Shown piece by piece: positions 5,728-25,480 of a stretch of 64,000 nt of DNA. The DNA comes from Nocardioides marmorisolisilvae (GTDB lineage: Bacteria > Actinomycetota > Actinomycetes > Propionibacteriales > Nocardioidaceae): NCBI RefSeq assembly GCF_031656915.1, contig NZ_CP134227.1, forward strand, positions 310,001-374,000, written 5' to 3'. The notes below the pieces were generated by a model. That model ran no database searches. It was not told the DNA's origin and was given only the letters and a program-made list of their open reading frames with translations. A program made the translations under genes and the position numbers. Numbering within the stretch: the stretch's first letter is position 1; every line of letters begins with the position of its first letter.

Positions 5728-5733
5728 CCCGCA

Positions 5734-5790
5734 CGGTCCCCGAACCCGCCGGTCCCTGAGCCTGTCGGTCCCTGAGCTTGTCGAAGGGCC
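5734..5790 (+). repeat. Left repeat array flanking the GIY-YIG gene
   Basis: Three 16-bp units in tandem: 5734-5749 (degenerate), 5750-5765 and 5766-5781 (CGGTCCCTGAGCTTGT), then CGAAGGGCC. The last unit plus this tail, 5766-5790, is repeated perfectly and inverted at 6144-6168. The motif belongs to a CTTCGACAAGCTCAGG-type dispersed repeat that I recall as common in actinobacterial genomes; copy number here was not measured. Confidence 0.85.
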
Positions 5791-5796
5791 GCCGGT

Positions 5797-6081
5797 TCAG
5801 CGATCCGCATCCCGGTGGGACAGTCGGGGTAGGTCGGCGTGCCGGCGCTCGATCAGGGCCAGCTTCTTCGCGCGCGACCAGCCATGAACCTGTCGCTCGA
5901 ATCGCGCTGCATCGCTGATGCGGTCGAATTCTTGGAACCAGACGAGATGTACGGGTCGCCGCTTTCGGGTGTAGTTCGCGCCGACTCCGACGTTGTGCTC
6001 CATCACGCGCCGATCCAGGTCATGCGTGCTCCCGACGTAGTACGACCCGTCGGCGCACACAACGATGTAGGTGCAGGCCAT
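5797..6081 (-). CDS. GIY-YIG superfamily nuclease, small single-domain (YhbQ/URI type)
   Basis: A 94-residue protein consisting of little more than a GIY-YIG domain. The start [21 protein letters not shown] is chosen over one 25 codons upstream because family members begin there; the upstream extension is low-complexity and lies within the repeat. Motif residues seen are Y5-I-V, Y15-V-G, R24/R25, H29-N and a later E in ARFERQ followed by the conserved GWSRAKK. The family cuts DNA; cellular roles of the small members are poorly known. The only minus-strand gene in the first 29 kb, it is enclosed by inverted repeats, which suggests it travels with them. Confidence 0.9.
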
Positions 6082-6143
6082 CGGGCGATCATGGCTGGGA
6101 CAGATGGCGTGCGCACTGTGCCGGCCGGTGCCTGTGGACTTTG

Positions 6144-6185
6144 GGCCCTTCGACAAGCTCAGGGACCGGTGGACTCAGGGGACCG
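6144..6185 (+). repeat. Right repeat array flanking the GIY-YIG gene, inverted to the left one
   Basis: 6144-6168 is the exact reverse complement of 5766-5790 (25 bp). It is followed at 6169-6185 by a diverged further unit (GTGGACTCAGGGGACCG), so the right side, like the left, is a short array. The array ends about 30 bp before the rarA promoter. Confidence 0.85.
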
Positions 6186-6212
6186 CAGGCGGGGTCAGGG
6201 GGCGGGGGCGCC

Positions 6213-6218
6213 TACGCT
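6213..6218 (+). promoter_or_regulatory. -10 element of a leaderless rarA transcript
   Basis: TACGCT ends six bases before the GTG start at 6225 and no Shine-Dalgarno sequence is present, which fits transcription starting at the start codon, as is common in Actinobacteria. Confidence 0.5.
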
Positions 6219-6224
6219 GAGCCG

Positions 6225-7598
6225 GTGGACGAGGGACTGTTCGAGACGCCGGGCGCGCCGGCGCCGGCGAGGGGCGGGACCCTGGCCGGGAACACCCACG
6301 CGTCGGCACCGCTCGCGGTGCGGATGCGGCCGCGGACGCTCGACGAGCTGGTCGGTCAGCGTCACCTGCTCTCACCCGGCTCGCCGCTGCGCCGGCTGAT
6401 CGAGGGCGACCAGCCGATGTCCCTGCTCCTGTGGGGACCGCCCGGGACTGGCAAGACCACGATCGCCTCGATCGTGTCGGGCCAGACCAATCGGGTGTTC
6501 GTGGAGGTCTCCGCGGTCGCTGCGGGGGTCAAGGAGGTCCGGGCCGCGATCGACGCCGCGCGGGCCCGGCTCGCGGGCAGCGGCCAGGAGACCGTTCTCT
6601 TCGTCGACGAGGTTCACCGCTTCACCAAGGCCCAGCAGGACGCTCTGCTCCCGGGTGTCGAGAACCGTTGGGTCACGCTGGTCGCGGCGACCACCGAGAA
6701 TCCGTTCTTCTCGGTGATCTCGCCGCTGTTGTCCCGGTCGCTGCTGCTCACCCTGGAGCCGCTCACCGACGACGACGTGCGAGGCGTGATCGAATCGGCG
6801 CTGACCGACGAGCGCGGGCTGGCCGGCACGGCCGAGATCGACGACGATGCGCTCGATCACCTTGTTCGTCTGGCCGGGGGTGACGCGCGTCGTGCATTGA
6901 CCTACCTCGAGGCTGCGGCAGGTGCTGGGCTGAGCCGCGCGTCCGGCCCGGGGGCCGGGCCGGTGCGGGTCGACCTGGCCACCACGGAGACCGCCGTGGA
7001 CCGAGCCGCGGTGCGCTACGACCGGCAGGGCGATCAGCACTACGACGTGATCAGCGCGTTCATCAAGTCGGTGCGCGGCTCCGACGCCGACGCGGCGCTG
7101 CACTACCTCGCCCGGATGATCGAGGCGGGCGAGGACCCCCGGTTCATCGCGCGACGGTTGGTGATCCTCGCGAGCGAGGACATCGGACTGGCCGACCCGA
7201 ACGCCCTGCCGACGGCGGTCGCGGCCGCACAGGCAGTCCAGCTCATCGGCATGCCCGAGGCCCGGCTCAACCTGGCGCAGGCCACGATCGCGCTGGCGGT
7301 GGCGCCGAAGTCGAACGCGGTGATCACGGCGATCGACGCCGCCGCTGCGGATGTCCGGTCCGGCAGGATCGGTCCGGTGCCCAGCCATCTGCGGGATGCG
7401 CACTACCAGGGGTCGAAGAGCCTGGGCCACGGCCAGGGCTACCGCTACGCCCACGATGAGCCCTACGGCATCGCGCAGCAGCAGTACGCCCCCGACGTGG
7501 TCCAGGACGCGACGTACTACCGGCCGACGAACCTCGGCGCCGAGGCGGCGATCCGGGAGCGTTGGGAGCGCATTCGCCGGATGATCCGCGGCAGGTAG
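6225..7598 (+). CDS. rarA: Replication-associated recombination protein A (MgsA/WRNIP1 AAA+ ATPase)
   Basis: AAA+ ATPase of 457 residues related to clamp-loader subunits, acting at stalled replication forks. Walker A is GPPGTGKT and Walker [10 protein letters not shown], followed by sensor 1 (AATTEN) and the arginine-finger region SPLLSRS; the C-terminal half carries the MgsA tetramerisation domain with the conserved [10 protein letters not shown] and [10 protein letters not shown]. The GTG at 6225 gives the usual N-terminus VDEGLFE; an upstream ATG would add a repeat-derived segment. It lies in its common actinobacterial place, upstream of alaS. Confidence 0.95.
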
Positions 7599-24164: not shown

Positions 24165-25480
24165 GCAGCTACCTGATCCGAGGGGCCCGGATCCTCGGCG
24201 GGGAGCCGAGCGACATCGAGGTCGCGGACGGCGTGATCGCGGCGATCGACCCTTCGACAGGCCGGGCCACGCGGTCAGCGACCGAAGGATGCGATGTCGT
24301 CGACGCTGACGGACTGGTGGCGCTGCCCGGGCTGGTCGACCTGCACACCCACCTGCGTGAGCCGGGACGTGAGGACGCCGAGACCGTGGAGAGCGGGACG
24401 CGTGCGGCGGCGATCGGTGGCTTCACCGCGGTGCACGCGATGGCGAACACCGAGCCGGTCGCGGACACCGCGGGCGTCGTCGAGCAGGTCTGGCGCCTCG
24501 GACGTGAGGCCGGGTACGCCGACGTGTTTCCGGTGGGCGCCGTCACCGTCGGGTTGGCGGGTGAGCGGCTCGCTGAGCTCGGCGCGATGGCCGACTCCGC
24601 GGCCCGCGTCCGGGTGTTCTCCGACGACGGCAAGTGCGTGTCCGACCCGGTGCTGATGCGCCGCGCGCTGGAGTACGTCCGCGCCTTCGACGGGGTGATC
24701 GCCCAGCACGCCCAGGAGCCGCGGCTGACCGAGGACGCCCAGATGAACGAGGGCGAGCTGTCCGGCCGGCTCGGGTTGCGCGGCTGGCCCGCGGTCGCCG
24801 AGGAGGCGATCATCGCGCGTGACTGCCTGTTGGCCGAGCACGTCGGCTCGCGACTGCACATCTGCCATGTCTCGACCGCTGGGTCCGTCGAGATCGTCCG
24901 GTGGGCCAAGGCCAGGGCACAGAGGGCGGGCAGCTGGCAGGTGACCGCTGAGGTGTGCCCGCACCACCTTCTCCTGACCGACGAGCGGGCGACCACCTAC
25001 GACCCGGTCTACAAGGTCAACCCTCCGCTGCGCACGGCCGTCGACGTCGAGGCGCTGCGCGCGGGCCTGGCCGACGGCACCATCGACGTGGTCGCCACCG
25101 ATCATGCGCCGCACCCGCACGAGGACAAGGACTGCGAGTGGCAGGCGGCCGCCTTCGGGATGCTCGGCCTGGAGACCGCTCTGTCCATCGTGCAGGAGGC
25201 GATGGTCGACACCGGCCTTCTGGACTGGGCCGGAGTGGCGGAGCGGATGTCCTACGCACCGGCCCGGATCGGCGCGATCGGCGCTCACGGGCAGCCGCTG
25301 CAGGTCGGCGCTCCCGCGAACATCGTGCTCTACGACCCCGCGATACGCCGGGTGGTCGAGGCCGCCGGGCTGGCCTCGCTGTCGCGCAACACGCCGTACG
25401 CCGGCATGGAGCTGCCTGGTCAGGTGGTCGCCACCTTCCTGCGTGGGAAGCCGACGGTGTTCGAGGGCAAGCTCTGTTGA
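24161..25480 (+). CDS. pyrC: Dihydroorotase, class I
   Basis: 439-residue zinc amidohydrolase closing carbamoyl aspartate to dihydroorotate. Metal ligands: [10 protein letters not shown] (about 63-72), the HAQEPRL and [10 protein letters not shown] histidines, and VATDHAPH with the catalytic Asp. The start is GTG 24161, overlapping pyrB. Residues about 30-43 ([13 protein letters not shown]) are an extra, poorly conserved segment encoded by a diverged copy of the CTTCGACA-type repeat; the catalytic core is untouched. Translation is tightly coupled through pyrR-pyrB-pyrC. Confidence 0.96.
24250..24288 (+). repeat. Diverged dispersed-repeat copy inside pyrC
   Basis: CCCTTCGACAGGC (24250-24262) and TCAGCGACCGAAGG (24275-24288) together match the CTTCGACAGGCTCAG-type repeat, interrupted by 12 bases. 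CCTTCG and CGAAGG form inverted ends. Same family as the arrays at 5734 and 6144. Confidence 0.5.

Follow-up and report, generated by a model that had tools for sequence, protein, structure and literature searches.

Few non-coding repeats of bacteria are as common as REPs, and a partner enzyme is known for those tagged GTAG, namely the RAYT, a Y1 HUH transposase (PF01797), whose small gene is bordered by inverted hairpin repeats dispersed genome-wide and forming a set matched to that one enzyme, an arrangement known as the REPtron. The tnpA_REP genes are, according to passages of one paper on them (PMC8266576), mostly single-copy and without evidence of mobility. Another superfamily, that of the CGTC REPs, is described in passages of Di Nocera et al. 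(2013; PMC3733652) as having the head CGTC or TGTC, AT at the start of the stem, a stem of 8-9 bp, often a loop of 4-5 nt, and the tail CCA; as these passages have it, CGTC REPs are apparently without a dedicated transposase, and in CGTC-positive species the tyrosine transposase genes have no CGTC sequences at their borders.

The locus treated here, located in a 64-kb stretch of DNA (hereafter the window, i.e. the whole stretch analysed), is like the REPtron in that one small nuclease gene is bordered by inverted, genome-wide dispersed hairpin repeats, the repeat set being matched to one enzyme, but here the enzyme is a member of the GIY-YIG superfamily, which is unrelated. The catalytic domain is common to the window gene and the GIY-YIG homing endonucleases (I-TevI, Seg proteins), some of which are free-standing mobile nuclease genes; unlike them, the window gene is intergenic, belongs to no intron or host gene, encodes one short domain and has inverted hairpin repeats at its borders. 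A search of open-access PubMed Central found no link between GIY-YIG genes and REPs. The best reading of the results is that a small mobile unit is present in the window—a REP-like hairpin, a GIY-YIG gene and an inverted REP-like hairpin—and that there exists a wide, so far unlinked class of stand-alone GIY-YIG nucleases of ~95 aa, each partnered with its own hairpin repeat. We consider it probable that this is a REP system independent of RAYTs, in which the GIY-YIG nuclease is the partner of the repeat and its likely mobiliser.

The unit in the window

The features of the locus are listed in Table 1. Both the 94-residue GIY-YIG gene and the perfect inverted 25-bp copies around it, as recognized in the initial annotation, were borne out: on the minus strand, the 94 codons run from 6081 to 5800, followed by the stop at 5799-5797, and the protein matches PF01541 (Pfam profile, E=4.8e-18) and weakly T5orf172, with no other domain. 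The degenerate units placed by the same annotation outside each copy held on the left, where one truncated unit matches the repeat at 17 of 25 positions over 25 bp from 5750, but not on the right, where there is a weak similarity by eye only. The two adjoining frames are open, that of the dipeptide ABC transporter ATPase matching NF008453 above its cut-off and that of the RarA-like AAA ATPase, with a predicted start at 6225, having its best NCBIfam matches below their cut-offs.

Table 1 Coordinates of the features at the GIY-YIG locus (positions in the window)
Feature	Position	Strand	Basis
GIY-YIG nuclease ORF, 94 aa, clade A	5797..6081	-	ORF and PF01541 match
Terminal repeat CGGTCCCTGAGCTTGTCGAAGGGCC, downstream of the GIY-YIG gene	5766..5790	+	
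Terminal repeat, perfect inverted 25-bp copy, upstream of the GIY-YIG gene	6144..6168	-	
Truncated repeat unit CGGTCCCTGAGCCTGTCG adjoining the terminal repeat	5750..5767	+	
Intergenic region holding the inserted unit, dipeptide ABC transporter ATPase gene to RarA-like AAA ATPase gene	5728..6224	.	

Besides the two perfect copies, no 25-mer matching the unit at more than 18 of 25 positions was found in an ungapped scan of the whole window; the matches of at least 16/25 number 32, the two perfect copies included, which is close to the 17-28 given by ten mononucleotide-shuffled windows. A second, diverged copy had been proposed within pyrC and had to be rejected: the dihydroorotase gene is present (about 24200-25480), with CCCTTCGACAGG near 24251 and CGAAGG about 20-30 bp further, and the best ungapped matches to the unit in this region, 17/25 (24260) and 16/25 (24321), are at the shuffle level and indistinguishable from chance. 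The whole 4.23-Mb genome (one contig) contains 12 copies of the 16-mer CTTCGACAAGCTCAGG and one of the reversed pattern. Further copies of the repeat at G000:C1:3338535-3338688, 3373561-3373625 and 3379282-3379330 form short direct arrays in one orientation with a spacing of ~30-55 bp. There are three GIY-YIG domains in this genome, the two besides that of the window gene sitting in reading frames longer than 600 aa, and PF01797 is absent from it. Judged by base composition and the order of its genes, the host is taken to be an actinobacterium.

Concerning the same site in the genus, all 24 genomes have the rarA-like gene, and only in the window genome is a GIY-YIG gene its neighbour, as opposed to 0/22 readable genus-mates (one of the 23 others, L166, is unreadable at the site owing to too little upstream DNA). 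Where a long ABC ATPase match lies nearby (11 genomes), the match-to-match distance is 76 to 320 bp versus 577 bp in the window genome; in the remaining genomes either another gene intervenes or the ABC ATPase match is partial. The 13-bp core of the repeat was found at the site in none of the 23 other genomes; gene-less repeats of the same kind occupy the same spacer in G043, and one such repeat lies directly upstream of the rarA-like gene in G066. A locus conserved without the repeats, named in the initial annotation as a possible refutation, is seen in genus-mates and is what insertion predicts.

Protein clades and their repeats

Of 120 genomes in the window's family, 61 contain relatives of the window gene, which form clade A, with up to five copies per genome. 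For 70 fetched loci (30 + 40), comparing the two 300-bp flanks with each other without a preset motif revealed inverted arms with a score of at least 16 at 55 loci, compared with 0/70 for shuffled flanks and 17/210 for cross-locus pairs; the arms commonly contain GAG...CGA inside a short complementary stem. Weak matches in the family of G120, which we take to be Rhizobiaceae in the GTDB sense, were tried as UPF0213 negative controls (L204-L222, 19 loci) and rejected as such, their flanks and the tree revealing a separate repeat-bearing clade, A', with arms of at least 16 at 15 of the 19 loci. A new UPF0213-type negative set was therefore fetched from a single order, which is Lysobacterales according to the NCBI lineage of its centre species; 40 of 81 genomes gave 42 matches, and 30 of these loci were opened. 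The UPF0213/YhbQ/YazA proteins are similar in size to the window-type ones and have the same invariant residues, but they form a separate clade without flanking repeats, arms of at least 14 being found at 0/30 loci and none above 12.

The same layout of a gene between repeats, with other repeats, was seen in plasmid records of alphaproteobacteria. Eleven of 44 such records were opened and inverted arms of 16 or more were present in five; of the 11, only L062, L064, L065 and L066, none of which has arms, were included in the subsequent counts, where they served as UPF0213-type controls. When species genomes were scanned with four plasmid-type proteins, 583 loci were obtained, the best 80 of which were kept and span proteobacteria, Bacteroidetes, Ignavibacteria, Armatimonadetes and others. 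Of these best 80 loci, 46 have arms scoring at least 16, versus 18/240 cross pairs, and most of these arms are CGTC REPs. With 300-bp flanks, the clade B arms reach at least 16 at 45/79 loci (cross pairs 8/237; from the best 80 of 583) and at 18/28 loci of a further set (cross pairs 15/84), loci with short flanks having been dropped (1/80 and 2/30, respectively). Among the 266 hairpins in clade B flanks, collected with a detector that itself demanded GTC, a 7-bp stem with at most one mismatch and CC, the head is CGTC in 205 and TGTC in 45, AT is present in 244, CCA in 253, a stem of 8-9 bp in 239 and a loop of 4-5 nt in 162. In head, AT at the stem start, stem, loop and CCA tail, these repeats fit the CGTC REP superfamily as passages of PMC3733652 delineate it, and here they are partnered by a clade of GIY-YIG genes. 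The window unit CGGTCCCTGAGCTTGTCGAAGGGCC, having a GAG-CGA core without the GTCAT head or the CCA tail, is outside that superfamily. A clade B-like GIY-YIG gene was also seen near GTCATCC repeats on a Planktothrix agardhii plasmid (L063), between an MmeI-type restriction gene and the DISARM gene drmA.

The protein clade predicts the class of the flanking hairpin over 246 unique loci (7 of 253 having been removed as duplicates), a hairpin being counted within 250 bp. GAG-CGA hairpins flank 68 of the 70 clade A loci on any side and 62 on both (shuffle 15.6 and 0.6), and CGTC hairpins 11 and 1 (shuffle 17.6 and 1.6). At the 19 A' loci, the GAG-CGA class is found at 17 on any side and 8 on both (shuffle 2.0 and 0.2), the CGTC class at none. 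The reverse applies to the 123 clade B loci, with the CGTC class at 105 and 64 (shuffle 13.0 and 0.6) and the GAG-CGA class at 10 and 0 (shuffle 11.4 and 0.2); 18 of these loci have no CGTC hairpin within 250 bp. Neither hairpin exceeds chance at the 34 loci of the UPF0213 type, where CGTC counts are 1 and 0 (shuffle 6.0 and 0.2) and GAG-CGA counts 3 and 0 (shuffle 3.6 and 0). It should be noted that the GAG-CGA detector also matches 31 of 70 clade A control regions 700-950 bp away, since arrays extend there and the chance level in GC-rich DNA is high. GIY-YIG genes elsewhere, for which the initial annotation had allowed that flanking copies might be missing, do have them, a cognate hairpin lying within 250 bp at 85/89 A/A' and 105/123 B loci. 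The pairing holds within single genomes as well: 13 sampled genomes of the family of G120 carry both A' and B genes, as split by a bit score of 65 that was set after viewing the list, and at 13 clade B loci from nine of them (one locus being a duplicate) the CGTC hairpin is present at 12 and the GAG-CGA hairpin at one. The repeats also have a preferred orientation, the upstream/downstream order '+-' accounting for 44/62 clade A, 4/8 A' and 34/64 clade B loci against a chance of 1/4; the distribution is far from uniform, in clade B above all.

In a FastTree phylogeny of 239 proteins (7 of the 246 loci being left out by a length filter), which has few columns and flagged long branches, each of the clades A, A', B and the UPF0213 type occupies one side of a branch, with a support of 91 for A and 95-99 for the others, and the window protein lies outside the UPF0213/YhbQ clade. 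The CGTC versus GAG-CGA character requires three changes on this tree, or 20 if 'no hairpin' is counted as a state.

As to the fold, the hairpins of clades A and A' have the form N4-GAG-loop-CGA-N4'. The pattern GAG-N5-CGA, with 315 instances and only a small excess, was not specific enough to test covariation cleanly, so that the stricter core GAGC..GTCGA was taken; in its 89 instances from 38 A/A' loci, which partly share a locus and are not independent, the outer four pairs are complementary in 74-83% versus shuffle maxima of 52-64%. The stems covary as GGTT/AACC, GGTC/GACC, CCTT/AAGG and CCCT/AGGG; pairs 5-8 beyond the outer stem show no excess pairing above noise in the 89 instances, and sheared G.A pairs may form on the inside, where GA faces GA. 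With nearest-neighbour DNA energies, clade A units fold weakly or not at all (z=-0.08 for the window unit), and the CGTC REPs are strong DNA hairpins in the energy model (z about -4.6).

Repeat number and gene presence

With the relatedness of genomes ignored, the clade A 19-mer pattern counts 1154 copies in the 61 genomes of the window's family with the gene versus 75 in the 59 without it (MWU p=2.5e-6), and at least 10 copies occur in 19 genomes with the gene versus 2 without; the association also appears within the window's genus (p=0.0012), and the reversed 19-mer gives zero in all 120 genomes. Under the same neglect of kinship, the CGTC pattern in the family of G120 counts 981 copies in 56 genomes with clade B versus 256 in 65 without it (p=3e-10), with at least 10 in 29 versus 5 genomes, respectively, and 0 to 2 per genome for the reversed control. 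The possibility raised in the initial annotation, that the repeat might be equally abundant without the gene, thus did not come true.

There are exceptions in both directions. No small GIY-YIG gene, but only long GIY-YIG frames, is present in the REP-rich genomes G138, G231, G135 and G236 (81, 46, 15 and 13 CGTC REPs, respectively) and in G050 and G017, rich in the clade A repeat (19 and 20 copies), and the only small GIY-YIG gene of G175, with 16 CGTC REPs, is of the A' type. On the other hand, G172, G238 and G240 have a clade B gene and no match to the strict CGTC pattern, and 20 of the 61 family genomes with the gene have zero copies of the exact 19-mer pattern, probably because the repeats there are variants. 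Two genomes scored as lacking the gene, G065 and G173, have a short GIY-YIG frame by Pfam search.

That these repeats are ordinary RAYT-mobilised REPs with a secondary GIY-YIG association is suggested by the architecture, which is the REPtron's (passages of PMC3733652 and PMC8266576), but we regard this explanation as barely credible. Within the window's family, Y1 transposases (PF01797) were found in only two of 120 genomes, and these two have neither the GIY-YIG gene nor the 19-mer repeat, so that RAYTs cannot account for the clade A repeats there and were ruled out as their agent. By inspection, the window unit and the clade A cores lack the GTAG tag of RAYT REPs, the clade B repeats having CGTC/TGTC instead; the tyrosine transposase genes of CGTC-positive species, as quoted above from passages of Di Nocera et al., also argue against it.

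Mobility and polymorphism of the unit

Movement as REP-gene-REP is seen in two genomes, where the paralogue pairs L294/L296 and L304/L305 share 84% identity over the 393 and 436 bp that the REP heads delimit, the DNA outside the REP heads being unrelated. At clade B loci, 30 of 73 homology ends, from pairs that are not independent, are no more than 5 bp from a REP head versus 4.9 expected. The units are also polymorphic at their sites. In the fnrL-response regulator spacer of Sphingobium megaplasmids, the unit-bearing version is covered at full length in seven records, three of which were aligned (TomTYG46, TomMM7A and TomTYG73, the last frameshifted). TomTYG64 (L339) and TomTYG74 (L337) have in place of the unit only a palindrome that looks like a fusion of the outer REP arms, exact in the former and with differences in the latter; this palindrome may be the scar of an excision or have arisen by deletion between short direct repeats; two further records have neither unit nor fused palindrome in the spacer, TomTYG65 possessing another short hairpin there. 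Similarly, Shinella H4-D48 lacks a unit present in WSC3-e and HZN7. No target-site duplications were recognised by eye at the paralogous units or at the Sphingobium and Shinella sites. Since gene-bearing units are multicopy and polymorphic, 'domestication', used in the initial annotation, is the wrong term; in this they also differ from the tnpA_REP genes as portrayed in the passages of PMC8266576.

It is unlikely, in our opinion, that the GIY-YIG gene is a hitchhiker, i.e. a homing-type parasite inserting into or next to existing REPs that something else spreads. Many REPs are far from any GIY-YIG gene, some REP-rich genomes are without it, and insertion sequences targeting REPs are on record (PMC1525189); against this, each protein clade pairs with its own repeat class even inside single genomes, both sides carry whole REPs rather than split halves, the unit ends coincide with REP heads, and the repeat copy number associates with the gene. 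Still less probable is a host repair or genome-maintenance protein, the nearby hairpins being regulatory or protective and the units spreading by inter-repeat recombination. Its sporadic presence (61/120 genomes, up to five copies, clade B likewise up to five), the different sites and the UPF0213 relatives without repeats are unlike a housekeeping gene, even though recombination can yield tandem arrays and a duplication of the gene unit such as those in G013 and G141, and the fused-arm palindromes of TomTYG64 and TomTYG74 are also expected from deletion between short direct repeats.

The enzyme and a possible mechanism

The residues Y5, Y15, R25, H29 and E62 are 100% conserved in 67 aligned clade A rows and 99-100% across the four clades; the tyrosines, the arginine and the glutamate correspond to GIY-YIG catalytic positions. 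Of ten pairs, eight have a low dN/dS, of 0.03 to 0.21, L234/L235 has dN=0, and L067/L068 was dropped with 29 aligned codons. W68 is common to clades A, A' and B (100, 100 and 82%, respectively) and lies within a basic C-terminal stretch that the UPF0213 type lacks, which makes W68 and this stretch, from the alignment, a candidate for repeat recognition. The nearest solved structures by sequence are those of UPF0213/YhbQ/YazA proteins (PDB 1zg2, 1ywl).

The idea put forward in the initial annotation, of a small nuclease that spreads the repeat without a RAYT, is supported by copy number, flanking repeats and empty sites; cleavage, transposition and the route of insertion we infer as follows. 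The nuclease would recognise its own hairpin, in single-stranded or cruciform DNA, and would nick or cut at or near the hairpin head; host repair might then insert the unit, either released or copied, or a REP by itself at another place, or amplify it in place, and the dispersed REPs would be non-autonomous passengers of the nuclease. GIY-YIG enzymes are hydrolytic, and strand transfer would therefore need host enzymes.

With somewhat less assurance than for the system itself, we favour a joint reading in which stand-alone GIY-YIG nucleases are a second, independent class of REP-making and REP-maintaining enzymes, three clades mobilising their own hairpins (GAG-CGA twice and CGTC once) as transposon-like units of ~0.4 kb; this would account for the CGTC REPs missing a transposase, possibly including Neisseria dRS3 and Rickettsia RPE. 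With a matched nuclease clade, the question of the CGTC transposase is directly testable with a ~95-residue enzyme and a 30-nt oligonucleotide. If the reading is true, a GIY-YIG nuclease can drive DNA mobility with no intron, intein or partner transposase, and an origin is provided for the TTCGAC..GCTCA-type repeats seen in the window's family and in alphaproteobacteria.

Finally, tandem arrays and tandem duplications are common near GIY-YIG genes, the arrays having periods of about 33 (L034), 115 (L247), 140 (L027) and 230 bp (L307), and some array copies are more than 95% identical, which suggests recent local amplification. At L245 (G013) and L312 (G141) the GIY-YIG gene is tandemly duplicated along with its repeats, and at L040 the GIY-YIG frame continues into the repeat array, the C-terminus gaining a repeated GVSTSSTTED peptide.
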